Part shown: positions 48,499 to 56,032 of the stretch, piece after piece
Layout: the number at the start of each line of letters is the position of its first letter
How positions within the stretch are numbered: position 1 is the stretch's first letter
Origin: Pararhodobacter oceanensis
Lineage (GTDB): Bacteria > Pseudomonadota > Alphaproteobacteria > Rhodobacterales > Rhodobacteraceae
Assembly: GCF_003076755.1 (NCBI RefSeq)
Contig: NZ_QDKM01000002.1
Location: 372,001-436,000, forward strand
Length of the DNA stretch: 64,000 nucleotides
Direction: 5' to 3'
Translations under genes and position numbers: made by a program
The notes under the pieces: model-generated
Database searches by the model: none
What the model saw: only the letters and a program-made list of their open reading frames with translations
Told to the model about the DNA's origin: nothing

Positions 48499-48602
48499 AA
48501 ACTTGCCTAAACCGGCGTCGGGCGTTACCTCTGCAGGGGCCGCCCGCCGCCCAAAGCGACGGGGCCGATCACCACTCTATGCCACGGGACAGCAGTTTCA
48601 CC

Positions 48603-49172
48603 ATGACAGCGCAGGACGCCCCAAGCGACGACGCGCTGCTTTGCGCCTATGCCGCCGGTGATACCGCGGCGGCGCGGGAACTGATGGAGCGGCTGGCACC
48701 GCGGGTGTTGCGGCTGGCGCAGCGTCTGTTGCAAGACCGCGCCGAGGCCGAAGACGTCACCCAAGAGGCGATGCTGCGGCTTTGGCAGATCGCGCCGAAA
48801 TGGGTGCCGGGGGGCGCGCAGCCCTCGACATGGCTGCACCGTGTGGCGGTCAATCTGGCCACCGACCGGCTGCGGCGGCGGCGCAGCGTGGCGCTCGATT
48901 CGATTGCCGAACCCGATGATCCGGCGCCCGCTGTGGTCGAAGGGATGATCGAGGCCGACCGGCAGCGCGCGCTTGACGAGGCGCTGGCGCTTTTGCCCGA
49001 CCGGCAACGTGCGGCGGTGGTGTTGCGCCATCTCGAGGGGCTGGGCAATCCCGATATCGCCGCGGCGATGGGCATCGGGGTCGAGGCCGTCGAAAGCCTG
49101 ACCGCGCGAGGAAAGCGCCGCTTGACAGAATTGCTGTCGGGGCGGCGGAATGAACTGGGGTATGACCGATGA
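48603..49172 (+). CDS. ECF-type RNA polymerase sigma factor
   Basis: 189 residues from ATG 48603 (an alternative ATG is at 48579). Region 2 is marked by AEAEDVTQEAMLRLW and STWLHRVAVNLATDRLR; region 4 by LPDRQRAAVVLRHLEGLGNPDIAAAMGIGVEAVESLTARGK. It is a group IV (ECF) sigma factor. A single-pass membrane protein gene overlaps it by 4 bases and fits an anti-sigma factor, and a CnrX/Spy-like sensor gene follows, as in metal-responsive ECF systems. Confidence 0.9.
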   Translation: MTAQDAPSDDALLCAYAAGDTAAARELMERLAPRVLRLAQRLLQDRAEAEDVTQEAMLRLWQIAPKWVPGGAQPSTWLHRVAVNLATDRLRRRRSVALDSIAEPDDPAPAVVEGMIEADRQRALDEALALLPDRQRAAVVLRHLEGLGNPDIAAAMGIGVEAVESLTARGKRRLTELLSGRRNELGYDR

Positions 49173-49624
49173 CTGAGAGAGACACGTCTGACAGGAACGC
49201 GCCCGCAAATGCACCCGCGACGGCACCCACGGATGCCTTCGGGGATGATATGCTCGAGGCGCTGTTTGCCGAAGCGCGCGCAGCCCAAGCACCCGCGCTG
49301 CCCGATGCATTGAGCGCGCGGATGATGGCGGATGCTGCGGCTGCTTTGGCGCCGCCGCCCGCGTCGCATCCCAATTGGTGGGCGCGGCTGCGGCTGGCCC
49401 TTGCCGATATCGGCGGCGCCCCCGGTTTGGCCGGTGTCAGCGCGGCGGGACTGGCGGGGGTCTGGATCGGCTTTTCCGGCAGCGGCGGCACCGGCGCTCT
49501 CTTGACCCAGTTCTGGCAGGGGGCGGCGACGGTCAGCCCCTCGGTTTCGGAATGGGTCGAGACCGATCCCCTGACAGATGACAGCTCGACGCTCTGGGCG
49601 TTGATGAGCGGCGAAATCGAGTGA
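49169..49624 (+). CDS. Putative membrane anti-sigma factor (unrecognised)
   Basis: 151 residues. A disordered N-terminus is followed by a helical cytoplasmic region (residues about 25-65), one transmembrane segment (about residues 90-108, GAPGLAGVSAAGLAGVWIGF) and a short periplasmic tail. The topology and the ATGA overlap with the sigma gene suggest an anti-sigma factor, but no zinc-binding HXXXCXXC motif is present. The role is inferred from position only. Confidence 0.6.
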   Translation: MTERDTSDRNAPANAPATAPTDAFGDDMLEALFAEARAAQAPALPDALSARMMADAAAALAPPPASHPNWWARLRLALADIGGAPGLAGVSAAGLAGVWIGFSGSGGTGALLTQFWQGAATVSPSVSEWVETDPLTDDSSTLWALMSGEIE

Positions 49625-49631
49625 GGCAGCT

Positions 49632-50231
49632 ATGACCACCCCCCCGCAGACCCCTGAGACCCCGACACACGGCAACTCTGGCCCCCAAAAACCCGCCGTC
49701 TCGCGCAGCCGTCGCGGGTTGCGGATTGCACTGATCGGTTCGCTGGTGGTCAATGTTCTGGTGATCGGCGTGTTGATCGGCGGCGCGATGCGGGCCGCGC
49801 ATTACGCCCCACCGCGTCCGCCCTCGGACTTCCGCGCGCTCTGGCGGGCGATGCCCGAGGAGGCGCGCAGCGATCTGCGCGCGCTCAACCGTGGCACACA
49901 TGACCGTGGTACACATGGCGCCCGCGGCGACCGGCAGGGCGAGCGTGGCAGTGACCGCCCCAGTGAGCGTCGCAGTGATGGCCGTCGCAGTGAGCGCTAT
50001 GCGGAGCGTCAGGCCGAGCGTCTGGCCCGCGCGCAGGAGGCCAACCGCGAGATCATCGCTTTGCTGCGCGGCGAGCCGTTTGACACCGCAGGTTTCACCC
50101 AGGTTCTCGGCGCCCAGCGGCAGCGTAATCACCAGCGCCTGCAAGAGGCCGAAGCCGCCTTTGCCCAGCGGGTCAGCGAATTGACCCCGGCGGAACGCCA
50201 GCAAATGGCCGAGGAGTTGGAGCGGGAGTAG
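49632..50231 (+). CDS. Periplasmic heavy-metal sensor (CnrX/Spy-like)
   Basis: 199 residues. One N-terminal membrane segment (about residues 30-52, RIALIGSLVVNVLVIGVLIGG) precedes a periplasmic domain rich in Arg, Glu and Gln, typical of the heavy-metal sensor or LTXXQ/CnrX type (for example LRGEPFDTAGFTQVLGAQR). A low-complexity stretch of Asp/Arg/Gly/Ser repeats (RGDRQGERGSDRPSERRSDG) lies in the middle. It starts 7 bases after the preceding gene. The signal sensed is not known. Confidence 0.8.
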   Translation: MTTPPQTPETPTHGNSGPQKPAVSRSRRGLRIALIGSLVVNVLVIGVLIGGAMRAAHYAPPRPPSDFRALWRAMPEEARSDLRALNRGTHDRGTHGARGDRQGERGSDRPSERRSDGRRSERYAERQAERLARAQEANREIIALLRGEPFDTAGFTQVLGAQRQRNHQRLQEAEAAFAQRVSELTPAERQQMAEELERE

Positions 50232-50394: not shown

Positions 50395-51798
50395 TCAGGC
50401 CGCCGCGAAGACCATGACCTGATTGCGCCCGTCGCTTTTCGCCTCCATCAAGGCGGCATCGGCGCGCGCCCATGTGTCGCGCGCGGTCTCCGCCGGGATC
50501 TGCGGCGCTGGCGTCAAATTCGGCCCCAGCGCCAGCCCCACCGAGATCGTCACTCGCACCGCGCAGTGTTTCTCGGGCAAACCCACCGGCGCCTCCGAGA
50601 CGATGCGGCACAACCGTTCGGCGGCCTGTCGGGCGGTGGCGATCGTCGCATCGGGCAGGGCGACCAGAAACTCCTCCCCGACGATGCGCGAGATCAGGTC
50701 CGAGGGCCGCAGATTGTCGCGCAGCCGCGCCGCGACGGTCTCCAGCACCGTATCACCGGCGGCATGGCCATAGGTGTCATTGACGGTTTTGAAACGGTCC
50801 AGATCCAGCACCATCACCGCGAATTGCCGCCCGCTCTCTTGTGCGCGTGCGGCGATCCGGTCCAGATGCGCCAGCGCATAGCGCCGGTTGTAAAGCCCGG
50901 TCAGCGGATCGGTCACCGCCAGCCGCAGCCCGTGGCTGACCGCCTGCCGCAGATGGTCGGCGCGGCGTTTGCGCTGGATATGCAGGGCGATGCGCAGCGC
51001 GGTTTCCTGCGGGTCCAGCGGCAGGGTCAACAGATCATTCGCGCCCACATCCAGCGCCATCGCCGCAGCCTCGGGCTCGGCCTCGGGCAGGACCAGCGCA
51101 ATCGCCGCGTGGCGGCTTTGCAACCGCGCGCGCAGATCGGCGATCAACCGCAGCCCCGATCCTGCGGCGCCCAGATCTTCGGCAACCAGATAGAGATCCT
51201 GCGAGGCGGCGCTGGTGGTATCGGTCAAGGCCTCGGCGGGGGTGAGGATGGTGACGCGTTCTTTTATGTGGTTGGCCAATGTGTTACGCCAGCCCATCGC
51301 CACCGAGGGCTGCCCCGCGACCATGCCGATCCGCCCCGGCATCGGCAGTAGGGTCTCGCCCCCAACGCCGCCATCCATCGCAAGATCGCCCCAGGTTTCC
51401 GACCGCATGCGCAGCTCGGCCTCGGTCTCATGGGCGCGCAGCAGGCTGCGGATGCGGGCCAGCAGGATCACCTCATTCAACGGTTTGGTCAGAAATTCAT
51501 CGGCACCGGCGGCCAGCGCCTGCAACCGGCTGTCGCGATCGGTCGAGGCGGTGATGATCACCACCGGAATATGCTGCGTGGCCGGATCGGCGCGCAACCT
51601 TCGACACACCTCGATCCCCGACAGATCGGGCAGCATCATATCCAGCAATATCAGCTTTGGCTGGGTCTCGCGCGCCAGTGCCAGCGCGGTCTCGCCATCC
51701 GCCGCTTGCTGTGTTTCATAACAGGCCGCGTTCAGTTTAACCTTGAGTATGATCCGGTTCGTTGCCAGATCATCTACGATCAGAATATTGCCTGTCAT
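50395..51798 (-). CDS. PleD-like diguanylate cyclase (receiver–pseudoreceiver–GGDEF)
   Basis: 467 residues. The first receiver domain has the phospho-acceptor Asp53 (LLDMMLPDLSG) and Lys105. A second receiver at about 155-275 lacks these residues. The GGDEF domain has the inhibitory I-site RPSD at 364-367 and the active-site loop VGEEF at 373-377, so the first Gly of GGDEF is replaced by Val (codon GTC at 50680-50682). The protein makes c-di-GMP if the substitution is tolerated. It is divergent from DUF3572. Confidence 0.9.
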   Translation of the reverse strand: MTGNILIVDDLATNRIILKVKLNAACYETQQAADGETALALARETQPKLILLDMMLPDLSGIEVCRRLRADPATQHIPVVIITASTDRDSRLQALAAGADEFLTKPLNEVILLARIRSLLRAHETEAELRMRSETWGDLAMDGGVGGETLLPMPGRIGMVAGQPSVAMGWRNTLANHIKERVTILTPAEALTDTTSAASQDLYLVAEDLGAAGSGLRLIADLRARLQSRHAAIALVLPEAEPEAAAMALDVGANDLLTLPLDPQETALRIALHIQRKRRADHLRQAVSHGLRLAVTDPLTGLYNRRYALAHLDRIAARAQESGRQFAVMVLDLDRFKTVNDTYGHAAGDTVLETVAARLRDNLRPSDLISRIVGEEFLVALPDATIATARQAAERLCRIVSEAPVGLPEKHCAVRVTISVGLALGPNLTPAPQIPAETARDTWARADAALMEAKSDGRNQVMVFAAA

Positions 51799-51928: not shown

Positions 51929-52222
51929 ATGAGCCCGATAAGTATGTCGCGCGCCGCCGCCGAGGAGTTTGCCGCCCTCGTTCTGTCTTGGTTAACCGAG
52001 GATCACGCCCGCATCGGCGGCTTTCTGGCTTGGTCGGGGCTGGCGCCGGAGGAGTTGCGCGCGGGCCTCGCCGAGGGCACGCTGTTGCCCGCCGTCCTCG
52101 ACTATCTGACGCTGGATGAGGCGATGCTGCTGGAGGCTTGCCAAGACCTTGATTACCCACCAGAAACCCCGATGACCGCGCGCCAGTCCCTGCCCGGTGG
52201 CGAGATCATACATTGGACCTGA
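51929..52222 (+). CDS. DUF3572 family protein
   Basis: 97 residues, all helical in appearance (RAAAEEFAALVLSWLTEDHARIGGFLAWSGLAPEELRAGL). DUF3572 proteins are small, uncharacterised and typically found next to pleD-like genes in alphaproteobacteria. GAGAGGAAAG precedes the ATG. The next gene's start lies 3 bases after its stop, so it is co-transcribed with the HAD gene. Confidence 0.85.
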   Translation: MSPISMSRAAAEEFAALVLSWLTEDHARIGGFLAWSGLAPEELRAGLAEGTLLPAVLDYLTLDEAMLLEACQDLDYPPETPMTARQSLPGGEIIHWT

Positions 52223-52224
52223 CC

Positions 52225-52914
52225 ATGCAAAATATCCGCGCGATTCTCTTCGACAAAGACGGCACATTATTCGACTTTCAGGCCACCTGGGGGGCCTGGG
52301 CGCAGGCGCTTTTGCAAGAATTCGCCGCGGGCGATCAGGGCCGGTTGGACGCGATGGCAGAGGCGATTGATTTCGATCTTGCCGCGGCGCGTTTCCGCCC
52401 CGAATCGGCGGTGATCGCGGGCACCGGCACCGAGGTTGTTAACCTTCTTAGCCCGGTCCTGCCCGGCGTCGATCCGCGCTGGCTCGAACAGCGCATCGCC
52501 GAGGCCGCCCGCGCGGCGCCTTTGGTCGAGGCGGTGCCGCTGCGTCCGCTCTTGCAAGGGCTGCGCGACCGGGGCTGTAAATTGGGCGTTGCCACCAATG
52601 ATTACGAATCCGTCGGCCGCGACCATCTCTCTGATGTTATTGAGCTTTTCGACTTCATTGCCGGGTTCGATTCCGGCTTTGGCGCCAAGCCCGAGCCGGG
52701 CATGCTATTGGGTTTCGCCCGCGCCTGTGACCTCGCCCCACGCGACATCCTGATGGTCGGCGATTCGCATCATGATCTGCTGGCCGGACAGGCGGCGGGG
52801 ATGCCGACTTTGGGTGTCTTGACCGGCGTCGCTACCGCCGCCGATCTGGCCCCCGTGGCGGATATTCTGCGCCCCGATATCGGCCATATTCCCGCGCTTT
52901 TGGGCGTTTCCTGA
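52225..52914 (+). CDS. HAD-family phosphatase (phosphoglycolate phosphatase-like)
   Basis: 229 residues. HAD motif I is FDKDGTLFD, motif II is in KLGVATNDYES, and motifs III-IV are in GAKPEPGMLL and LMVGDSHHDLLAGQAAGMPT. It has the cap arrangement of the phosphoglycolate phosphatase group, but the substrate cannot be stated. ATG 52225 lies 3 bases after the DUF3572 stop; a TTG at 52213 is a possible but less likely start. Confidence 0.9.
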   Translation: MQNIRAILFDKDGTLFDFQATWGAWAQALLQEFAAGDQGRLDAMAEAIDFDLAAARFRPESAVIAGTGTEVVNLLSPVLPGVDPRWLEQRIAEAARAAPLVEAVPLRPLLQGLRDRGCKLGVATNDYESVGRDHLSDVIELFDFIAGFDSGFGAKPEPGMLLGFARACDLAPRDILMVGDSHHDLLAGQAAGMPTLGVLTGVATAADLAPVADILRPDIGHIPALLGVS

Positions 52915-52982: not shown

Positions 52983-53588
52983 ATGCATGGTTTGATCAAT
53001 AAATCTCTGCAGACCTTTCTGACCGAGTCCTTTGGCGCTGCGGTCTGGCGGGAGATTGCGCGCGACTCGGGTGTGGCGCAATCGCTGGGGCCGGACGGGT
53101 TCGAGGCGATGCAGGTTTACGATGATCAACTGACCTATGCGGTGCTGGCCTCGGCGGTTTCGATCCTGCAGCGGCCGCTGGACTGCCTGCTTGAGGATCT
53201 GGGCACCTTTCTGATCTCGAATGAACGGCTGGAACCGCTGCGCCGTTTGCTGCGTTTCGGCGGCGTCAGTTTCACCGATTTTCTCTATTCTCTCGATGAC
53301 TTACAGGGCCGCAGCAAACTTGCGGTGCCCGATCTGGACCTGCCGGAACTCTGGGTTGATGAGGATGGCGCGGGGCAATTTACCCTGACCTGTCGCAATT
53401 GCCCGCAGGGGTTTGGCCATGTGATGGTCGGTATTCTGCGCGCTTTGGCCGATGATTACGGGGCTCTTGCGGTGCTGGATCATCTCGGCAATGGTGGTGG
53501 CATGTCCGATGAGGTGATCACCATCAAGGTGCATGATCCGGCCTTCCACGCCGGCCGCCGCTTCGACCTTGCGGTCGGAGCGATGTGA
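52983..53588 (+). CDS. H-NOX (heme NO-binding) domain protein lacking the proximal histidine
   Basis: 201 residues from ATG 52983 (MHGLINKSLQTFL), the family N-terminus; ATG 52968 would add five residues. The H-NOX fold is recognisable through FGGVSFTDFLYSLDDL. The position where the heme-binding His normally sits (the H of LDDLH) is Gln108, and no His occurs between residues 3 and 145. The usual YxSxR motif is replaced by the region TCRNCPQ (136-142), with a CxxC at Cys137-Cys140. The neighbour 65 bases on is an HNOBA-GGDEF protein. Confidence 0.85.
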   Translation: MHGLINKSLQTFLTESFGAAVWREIARDSGVAQSLGPDGFEAMQVYDDQLTYAVLASAVSILQRPLDCLLEDLGTFLISNERLEPLRRLLRFGGVSFTDFLYSLDDLQGRSKLAVPDLDLPELWVDEDGAGQFTLTCRNCPQGFGHVMVGILRALADDYGALAVLDHLGNGGGMSDEVITIKVHDPAFHAGRRFDLAVGAM

Positions 53589-53653
53589 GCGGCGCGGTAT
53601 CGGAGCAAGGTGCGTATTGGTGCGGGACGGGTGTTTGTGAGGGGCAGGAATAA

Positions 53654-54688
53654 GTGATGGATGGGGATTTGCGCCAACAGGGATTTCAACTCAGTGCATC
53701 GGCGCTCGGGCAGATGATGCCAATGTATCTCTGGCTTGATAACGCGGGCCATATCCGCGGCGCCGGTCCGACATTGCAAAAGCTGATGGGCGCGCAGTAT
53801 CTGGGGCGCAAATTCACCGATATCTTCGATCTGCGGCGTCCGCGGGTCTGGGGCAATGTGCTGGAATTGACCCGCGCGCAGCGGTTGCGCATGTCGCTGA
53901 ACACCCCGCCGCACACCTCGTTCAAGGGCACGGCGGTGCCGCTGCAAAGTGATGGGGGGGTCTTGCTCAATCTCTCCTTTGGTTATGCGGTGCGCGAGGC
54001 GGTGCGCGATCACGGGCTTTCCGACACCGATTTCGCCGCCACCGATCTGGCGATTGAACTCCTCTATCTGGCCGAGGCGAAAACCGCGGTGATGGGCGAA
54101 GTCAGCAAAATGGCCACCCGTTTGCAGGGCGCCAAAGCGATTGCCGAGGCGCAGGCGCTGACCGATGCGCTGACCGGTCTGGGCAACCGCCGCGCGATGG
54201 AACAGGCGATGGAGGTCTTGCTACAGGCGGAAAACGGCTTTGCGCTGATCCATCTTGATCTGGATTTCTTCAAACAGGTGAATGACACTTTGGGCCATGC
54301 GGCGGGCGATCATGTGCTGGTGAAAATCAGCGAGATCCTGCGCGCCTCGGCGCGGGGTGCGGATCTGGTGGCGCGGGTCGGGGGCGATGAATTCGTCATC
54401 CTGATGGAGGGGGTGCGCGATGCCGCCCCGATTGAGCGTGTCGGCAGGCAAATTCTCGACCATATGCAAGAGCCGATCTTGTTTGACGGGCAGCATTGCC
54501 GCGTCGCCCTGTCGATGGGGGCGGTGGTTGGCCCGACCAAACGCGACCTGTCGATCAGCGCCGAGGATTTGATGGCCAAGGCCGATGTCGCGCTCTACGC
54601 CTCGAAAAAGGCCGGTCGCGCGCGGCTGACCCTTTCAGAGGCGTCGGGCAATCTGCGCGAACTGGCGGCGATGGACCTGCCCGCCTAA
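53654..54688 (+). CDS. HNOBA–GGDEF diguanylate cyclase
   Basis: 344 residues. The N-terminal about 130 residues are the HNOBA (heme NO-binding associated) PAS-like domain, with YLWLDNAGHIRGAGPTLQKL. A short linker helix follows, then a GGDEF domain with I-site RGAD (233-236 approximately) and an intact GGDEF at 243-247. It is predicted to make c-di-GMP in response to the H-NOX partner encoded immediately upstream. This is the usual way H-NOX proteins of bacteria control cyclases. Confidence 0.9.
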   Translation: MMDGDLRQQGFQLSASALGQMMPMYLWLDNAGHIRGAGPTLQKLMGAQYLGRKFTDIFDLRRPRVWGNVLELTRAQRLRMSLNTPPHTSFKGTAVPLQSDGGVLLNLSFGYAVREAVRDHGLSDTDFAATDLAIELLYLAEAKTAVMGEVSKMATRLQGAKAIAEAQALTDALTGLGNRRAMEQAMEVLLQAENGFALIHLDLDFFKQVNDTLGHAAGDHVLVKISEILRASARGADLVARVGGDEFVILMEGVRDAAPIERVGRQILDHMQEPILFDGQHCRVALSMGAVVGPTKRDLSISAEDLMAKADVALYASKKAGRARLTLSEASGNLRELAAMDLPA

Positions 54689-54711: not shown

Positions 54712-55878
54712 TTAGCCCTGCACAAAAAGCGAGCCGGGCAGGGTGCAGAATTTCTCCACCCCCGTCTCGGTGATCAGCAAGGGCTCGGTAATTTCGATCC
54801 CCCCGTCGTCCAGCCAAAGCGCCGGCATGAAGTGAAAACACATCCCCGGGGTCAGCACGGTTTTATCGCCGCGGCGCAGCGACAAGGTGCGCTCCCCCCA
54901 ATCCGGCGGATAGCTTAACCCGATGGAATAGCCGCAGCGGCTGTCCTTGCTGAACCCGTGTTTGTTGAGCGCCGCGTTGAACGCATTGGCGATATCCTCA
55001 CAAAGGTTGCCCGGCCGCGCCTGTTGCAACGCGGCCTCACTCGCCTCTTGCACCGCCTCTTCGGCGCGGCGGTATTGCGCCGGCGGCTCGCCGAAAAACA
55101 GGGTCCGCGATTGCGGGCAATGATAGCGCCGGTAAACCCCTGCAATTTCAAAGAAATGCGCCTCGCCGCGCTGCATCGGCCTATCGTCCCAGGTCAGATG
55201 CGGGGCGGTGGCATCCATGCCCGAGGGGGTCAGCGGCACAATTGCCGGATAATCCCCCCAATGCCCGCCCGCGCCCAAAGCAGAGCTGCGCAGGATTTCC
55301 GCGACCAATATGTTTTTCGGCAGACCGGGCTGCGCGACATCCAAAATCGTTTGATGCATCGATTCCACGATCCGCGCGGCACGGCGCATGCGCTCGATCT
55401 CGGCCGCTGATTTCACCGCGCGCTGCCAGTTCACCAAGCCTGTGGCGTCCTGCAGCCTTAGATCTTTGGCCAGCACGGCATGGGCTTTGGCGGAATAATA
55501 GTAATTGTCCATCTCCACACCCACCTGCGCCGCTTGCCAACCACGCTCGGCCAGCGCTTGGGTCAGGGTCTCCATCGGGTGCTTTTGCGGGTTCTGCACA
55601 TAGGTATCATCATACCCCAAAACACAGTCATCCGGCATCCAGACCGTGCGCAGCGCCCCCGCCGCATCCATCTCGCGCCCCCACCAGAGCGGCGCGCCCG
55701 AGGGACCGACGATCACCGCCTGATGCACGTAAAACGACCAGCCGTCATAGCCGGTGATCCAGGCCATATTCGACGGGTCACTGACCACCAGCACTTCCAG
55801 CCCGGCGATTGCCATGGCGGCGCGCACGGCGGTGAGGCGGTCGGAGTATTCCGCTTGCGTGAACTCGGCTGAATCCAT
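54712..55878 (-). CDS. doeA: Ectoine hydrolase-like M24 family protein (DoeA/EutD)
   Basis: 388 residues. Strong similarity from memory to Halomonas DoeA: SDPSNMAWITGYDGWSFYVH, MDNYYYSAKAHAVL and PIVPLTPSGMDATAPHLTWDD-type blocks (here AIVPLTPSGMD). The creatinase-like domain carries FFEIAGVYRRYHCPQSR in place of the metal-binding Asp residues of M24 peptidases. Ectoine hydrolase opens ectoine to N-acetyl-diaminobutyrate. The rest of the ectoine catabolic operon is not adjacent. ATG 55878 has GGAGG directly upstream, better than the TTG at 55893. Confidence 0.8.
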   Translation of the reverse strand: MDSAEFTQAEYSDRLTAVRAAMAIAGLEVLVVSDPSNMAWITGYDGWSFYVHQAVIVGPSGAPLWWGREMDAAGALRTVWMPDDCVLGYDDTYVQNPQKHPMETLTQALAERGWQAAQVGVEMDNYYYSAKAHAVLAKDLRLQDATGLVNWQRAVKSAAEIERMRRAARIVESMHQTILDVAQPGLPKNILVAEILRSSALGAGGHWGDYPAIVPLTPSGMDATAPHLTWDDRPMQRGEAHFFEIAGVYRRYHCPQSRTLFFGEPPAQYRRAEEAVQEASEAALQQARPGNLCEDIANAFNAALNKHGFSKDSRCGYSIGLSYPPDWGERTLSLRRGDKTVLTPGMCFHFMPALWLDDGGIEITEPLLITETGVEKFCTLPGSLFVQG

Positions 55879-56032
55879 GGTGACCTCCGGCAAAAGAGGA
55901 CCTGCGCAGCCAGCGAGGTCCTGTAGAACAGATGCGCGGCGCCAGTTTGCGCCAGCGGTAATGGCGCAATGTTTGCACGGGGTTAGCGAAATCAGAGGCG
56001 GGTTTGCGACGGAATGCAGTCTGCCCGCGGCG

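Follow-up and report, generated by a model that had tools for sequence, protein, structure and literature searches.

A probable diguanylate cyclase partner without the heme histidine: an H-NOX-like protein of Pararhodobacter oceanensis and its place in Group 5

What does an H-NOX protein do when the histidine that should hold its heme is missing and its partner cyclase is still there? The question is raised by a stretch of 64,000 nucleotides from Pararhodobacter oceanensis (contig NZ_QDKM01000002.1, positions 372,001 to 436,000; hereafter the window, in whose own numbering coordinates are given), where a gene for an H-NOX-domain protein lies next to one for a diguanylate cyclase. We hold, with moderate confidence, that the H-NOX protein works without heme, that selection keeps it as a partner of the cyclase, and that it probably rests in an inhibitory state that resembles the one switched on by nitric oxide (NO), here called 'NO-on-like'. 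The features of the H-NOX gene on which the argument turns are as follows.

52983 to 53588, forward strand: H-NOX/HNOB-domain protein of 201 amino acids, without the proximal heme histidine (Pfam PF07700)
52986 to 52988, forward strand: His2 (conservation in the clade and residue mapping)
53241 to 53264, forward strand: RRLLRFGG, residues 87 to 94, a strongly conserved signature of the clade (clade alignment)
53304 to 53306, forward strand: Gln108 (codon CAG), at the position of the proximal heme histidine (alignment to Nostoc H-NOX; codon)
53391 to 53402, forward strand: C137-R-N-C140, replacing the YxSxR heme-propionate motif (alignment)
53418 to 53420, forward strand: His146, adjoining the position aligned to Nostoc M144 (alignment)

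The protein matches the Pfam HNOB profile (PF07700) at 72.7 bits against a cut-off of 25.5, over residues 2 to 159 and profile positions 1 to 155 of 163, and it is the sole HNOB match in its genome at E <= 0.001. Its matches among solved structures, obtained with phmmer, are the Nostoc H-NOX Alr2278 and the beta-1 subunit of soluble guanylate cyclase (sGC); in the Nostoc alignment His105 (the His of 'NLHAR') falls on Gln108, and 'YQSTR' on C137-R-N-C140-P. With a profile of 66 sequences from the clade described below, the entries recovered were of similar kinds, and none was a structure from the clade itself. Histidine occurs at residues 2, 146, 167, 184 and 189 only, and cysteine at residues 68, 137 and 140 only, with none C-terminal of 140. 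Two marks of an H-NOX, the proximal heme histidine (Gln108) and YxSxR (CRNCP), are therefore lacking in a protein that has the HNOB profile match, and from these residues we infer that heme binding at the classical site is absent. An earlier sequence-only reading of this DNA had recognised the H-NOX fold at the correct coordinates, placed Gln108 at the heme-ligand position, found no His between residues 3 and 145 and seen CRNC where YxSxR should stand; profile and alignments bear this out, and the statement on His is exact.

The same reading took the case for a single degenerate protein, but it is instead the norm of a group already described. A 2022 review of H-NOX proteins recognises a very large Group 5, which includes a Paracoccus denitrificans sequence and in which the proximal His is present in <10% of members and mostly replaced by Pro; conserved Cys are absent, and the question of how NO or another signal is sensed is raised there (PMC8738867). 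Kumar and Spiro had in 2017 reported the axial His to be absent from the P. denitrificans and Rhodobacter sphaeroides proteins (PMC5588039). In the accessible portions of the literature searched, with subscription journals mostly outside the search, there was no heme-binding test of any member that lacks the His, nor had a ligand been proposed.

Our own survey of the family holds about one genome per genus, and 220 of its 296 genomes had a match. We fetched 200 loci from 199 of the 220 matching genomes, the remainder being canonical-only loci or left-out cases, and read 196 clade proteins from 196 genomes. Genomes with matches beyond those listed were searched again, except G060, G082 and G330; short or split matches (G063, G075, G100, G114, G229, G302 and G306) and unlisted second copies were left out of the count. 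The alignment comprises 327 loci, with 291 rows in the clade and 36 outside it, and removal of 25 duplicates leaves 266 unique clade sequences, the window's included. Among 40 rows initially set apart, L234, L294, L322 and L325 were counted in the clade and L170, L175 and L296 were not. The named loci used further below are the best 80 of 535 confirmed relatives (592 stretches), ranked by similarity to the window and therefore no random sample; among the matches listed in the named-genome scan, the closest relatives are in Pararhodobacter and other Rhodobacteraceae.

On FastTree trees the clade contains no canonical member, both with 266 tips (support 89) and with 265 tips and more columns omitted (support 94). 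The proximal His is absent from 248 of the 266 unique sequences (window included), residue 108 being Pro in 187, Gln in 24, His in 18, Arg in 12, Glu in 6, Asn and Ala in 5 each, Ser in 4 and other residues in fewer. Counted by genome, 181 of 196 are His-less (Pro 143, Gln 10, Arg 8, others 20, against His 15), and the 17 proteins of the same genus, window included, have Gln (12), Pro (3) or Arg (2). The full YxSxR is found in none of the 266, and hence in none of the 18 that keep His. Such a recurrence of the His-less pattern across the family is far beyond chance. Outside the clade, His is present in 34 of the 36 rows and the full YxSxR in 31, and it is because this outgroup has His that we speak of a loss; parsimony gives 12 changes at position 108 with the clade root read as His-less, or alternatively 38 losses on the assumption that a lost His does not return. 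The clade profile, searched against 387 genomes of the class, gave ten matches; six belong to the same family, and the four from other families carry His and Y.S.R and look canonical. Placed by the features it shares with Group 5 (proximal His usually absent, no conserved Cys, and a GGDEF gene adjacent in the window and in 80/80 named loci), the window H-NOX is an ordinary member of that group. The clade counts agree with the review; Cys137, present in 164 of 265 clade members (62%), is the best Cys column, no Cys stands among the columns conserved at >=80%, and 'no conserved Cys' is refined by this and not contradicted.

The two rows outside the clade that do not show His are L170 and L175. 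L170 (G123:C4:118741-119217) is a protein of the canonical group that keeps Tyr-Ser-Arg intact but has Gln where the heme ligand should be, which looks like an independent loss. The H-NOX gene is broken, by an internal stop or into two frames, in L175 (G289), G202 and G075, unless these are misassemblies.

Whether the pair is maintained can be judged from the cyclase and from the way both genes evolve. The cyclase features are these.

53654 to 54688, forward strand: partner diguanylate cyclase, start at GTG 53654 or ATG 53657 (Pfam GGDEF, 134.4 bits)
53687 to 53851, forward strand: partial HNOBA-like segment at the N-terminus of the cyclase (Pfam PF07701, 24.0 bits)
54353 to 54364, forward strand: RxxD inhibitory site (RGAD), cyclase residues 234 to 237 (residue mapping)
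54380 to 54394, forward strand: GGDEF active-site motif, cyclase residues 243 to 247 (residue mapping)

GGDEF and the inhibitory site are intact as the sequence-only reading had it, but its 'intact HNOBA' was an overstatement: at 24.0 bits the match barely exceeds the Pfam cut-off of 23.4, and it extends over 59 of 216 profile positions. When the cyclases of seven relatives were scanned, three had an HNOBA match above the cut-off, three one below it and one none, while GGDEF was found in all seven; the domain is no more degraded in the window than elsewhere. In 80/80 named loci the H-NOX gene adjoins a GGDEF gene in which both GGDEF and RxxD are intact, whatever the residue at position 108. 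In 12 pairs of His-less H-NOX genes, the ratio of nonsynonymous to synonymous substitution (dN/dS, taken as the quotient of the computed dN and dS) was 0.04-0.34 in 11, which are rough values with dS >1 in several, and the twelfth pair had no usable dS. Protein identity was higher for the H-NOX than for its cyclase in 10 of the 12 pairs. The H-NOX is thus under purifying selection, and the persistence of the signalling pair, which had been expected from the sequence, is upheld.

How a protein of this kind could act on its cyclase is suggested by the canonical switch. Rupture of the iron-His bond is thought to be required for activation of H-NOX by NO (PMC12329717), and in D. shibae (Dinoroseobacter shibae), whose H-NOX is counted among the heme-based NO sensors (PMC8846402), the NO-bound H-NOX inhibits the cyclase Dgc1 (PMC7232146; PMC8846402). 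If NO acts by breaking that bond, a protein without the bond should rest released, and the window H-NOX, having none, would rest in a released, 'NO-on-like' shape. A proximal-His mutant of a Shewanella H-NOX reportedly behaves as the released form. By analogy with D. shibae, the released protein would bind the neighbouring cyclase and hold it down, and cyclase output would be set by a factor other than heme-bound NO, which may be the level of the protein itself or a ligand bound where heme once sat. Deletion of hnoX in P. denitrificans impairs attached growth in part and reduces biofilm, and inhibition of DgcA by H-NOX has been suggested (PMC5588039); our reading fits these mutant results. Several points weigh against it. 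The absence of heme, the binding to the cyclase and the resting state each go further than the residues themselves, and another residue (His2, His146 or Cys137) could hold heme. The P. denitrificans authors retain a model of NO sensing despite the absent His (PMC5588039), and c-di-GMP (cyclic diguanosine monophosphate) was below detection in that species (PMC12582929).

Retention of His was also compared with denitrification across 159 genomes. The nitrite reductase genes nirK or nirS occur in 9 of the 15 genomes that keep His and in 43 of the 144 that do not (Fisher p 0.039), the 15 being all the His-bearing genomes and the 144 being drawn from 181 His-less ones in list order, not at random. 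Presence was scored by hand as nirK over the curated cut-off or a nirS match of >=377 bits, with weaker matches ignored, and G149, G244 and G275, which have partial or paralogue-type nir matches only, were scored as absent. On the tree only 3 independent pairs with support bear on the association, and the median p of the sign test is 0.5. The link of His retention with nirK/nirS is therefore weak, within reach of shared ancestry and suggestive at most. The window's own genome has no nirK above the cut-off and no Cytochrom_D1 (nirS) match, other NO sources not having been searched.

Among the alternatives, the most novel would make Group 5 a new type of sensor. Its old pocket would contain a different ligand, either a small molecule other than heme or heme bound through His2, and would be read out to the cyclase through the clade's acidic and arginine residues E71-D72, R87-R88-R91 and D157-D158, so that the NO switch would have been converted into another in most of the family. 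We regard such a conversion as possible but unlikely. Residues E41, E71, D72, R87, R88, R91, R153, D157 and D158 are near-invariant in the clade and mostly different in the canonical paralogues. Some of these residues also bear on a rather less probable explanation, that the protein is a purely structural or dosage partner, a pseudo-sensor without signal input like the H-NOX of the sGC alpha subunit. The constant pairing with the cyclase in the 80 named loci would suit such a partner, but the window H-NOX stands alone and has no N-terminal extension that could occlude the pocket (its match begins at residues 1-2), and the clade-specific E71, D72, R87, R88, R91 and D157 suggest an evolved task, though an interface alone could explain them.

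Of much the same low probability is the possibility that heme is still bound through His2 (or His146 or Cys137), which would have freed position 108 to drift. Of the 247 clade members covering the position, 236 have His2, against 0 of the 33 canonical paralogues covering it, where Lys (28), Tyr (4) and Leu (1) are found instead; as a possible substitute ligand or contact it is the residue of greatest interest. Pro121 and Trp22 are near-invariant in the clade as well. However, His2 is also found in 16 of the 17 His108-bearing members that cover it, and being equally frequent in these it does not track the loss of His108. Cys137 is missing in a large minority of the clade, and His146, present in 129 of 265 members, in about half. 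We also considered His146 as a swapped distal ligand and rejected it, since its frequency in His-less and His-bearing members (122/248 and 7/18) shows no clear compensation. A link between Trp or His at position 139 and His108 (13/18 against 26/248, raw p 1e-8) was not used, the grouping having been picked post hoc; S8 and L86 outscore Trp139 alone in their association with His108, and on the tree the link comes down to 4 supported independent pairs and is not significant.

A redox or metal switch through C137-R-N-C140, perhaps analogous to the zinc-Cys H-NOX proteins, had been put forward from the sequence as a guess and seems to us improbable. The CxxC is shared by 8 of the 17 same-genus proteins (window included), and the heme-free H-NOX of Vibrio cholerae and 'Cc' H-NOX, which we take to be that of Caulobacter, respond to Cys oxidation (PMC7108781; PMC12329717). 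The zinc site of these proteins is however made of three Cys and a His or Gln, with two of the Cys in the C-terminal part (PMC7108781; PMC12329717), where the window H-NOX, with Cys at 68, 137 and 140, has none; Group 5 is moreover reported to be without conserved Cys (PMC8738867). Cys140 occurs in 12 of 253 clade members and the full CxxC in only 10 of 266 unique sequences, for which reason we rejected it as a family-wide new switch, and residue 108 in these ten is mixed (Q 4, P 4, R 2), so that CRNC, whose co-occurrence with Gln108 was to be surveyed, does not track it and the redox or metal idea lacks family support. Finally, the protein might be what is left of an NO sensor that is being lost. 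Many different residues stand in for His108 (P, Q, R, E, N, A, S and others), and a small number of copies (G289, G202, G075) are split in two or interrupted by a stop codon. The low dN/dS and the presence of the gene in 196 genomes, from roughly that number of genera, make decay very improbable.

A HAD hydrolase gene lies directly upstream of the H-NOX gene (52213-52914, forward strand). Of the 76 named loci with >=900 bp of upstream sequence, 53 hold a homologue, but only 16 have it within ~375 bp of the start of the H-NOX gene, and we did not treat it as belonging to the system. At 50395-51798 on the reverse strand, also upstream and some 1.2 kb from the H-NOX gene, is a PleD-like response-regulator diguanylate cyclase (Response_reg and GGDEF), so that two genes of c-di-GMP metabolism are near each other. 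Genes for a sigma factor of the extracytoplasmic function (ECF) type, a protein without Pfam match and a Metal_resist-domain protein follow one another at 48579-50231 (forward strand), perhaps as one operon. Downstream, a convergent M24 peptidase/creatinase-like gene (54712-55893, reverse strand) has a homologue in only 5 of the 80 named loci, though the flanks of some loci are short.

The consequence for annotation is that most H-NOX/cyclase pairs found in Rhodobacteraceae cannot be read as ordinary heme-NO sensors, despite the domain name. Among known systems, the zinc-Cys redox H-NOX proteins of V. cholerae and Cc show that heme-independent H-NOX signalling is possible, but they retain the proximal His and have the zinc site, and the window H-NOX has neither. 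The pseudo-H-NOX of the sGC alpha subunit likewise keeps a heme-free H-NOX fold together with a cyclase, in that case as a domain of a fusion protein whose N-terminal extension fills the pocket. Closest in kind is the Group 5 type, Pden_3719/hnoX with dgcA of P. denitrificans, in which a GGDEF cyclase is adjacent, the proximal His is lost and no Cys is conserved; the window differs from the group in its Gln, where Pro is commoner, and in its CxxC, and from P. denitrificans, a denitrifier, in lacking the nir matches given above. The scattered His-bearing relatives are natural comparisons for the effect of heme-ligand loss, and one of them would be the D. shibae H-NOX/Dgc1 pair. Genome G074 (locus L168), which we take to be D. 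shibae, has the same cyclase architecture and an H-NOX of the same clade in which the Tyr and Ser of YxSxR are also replaced (C-I-W-H-R); it retains His108 where the window has Gln108, and the heme-NO sensing reported for D. shibae would then need neither Tyr nor Ser.
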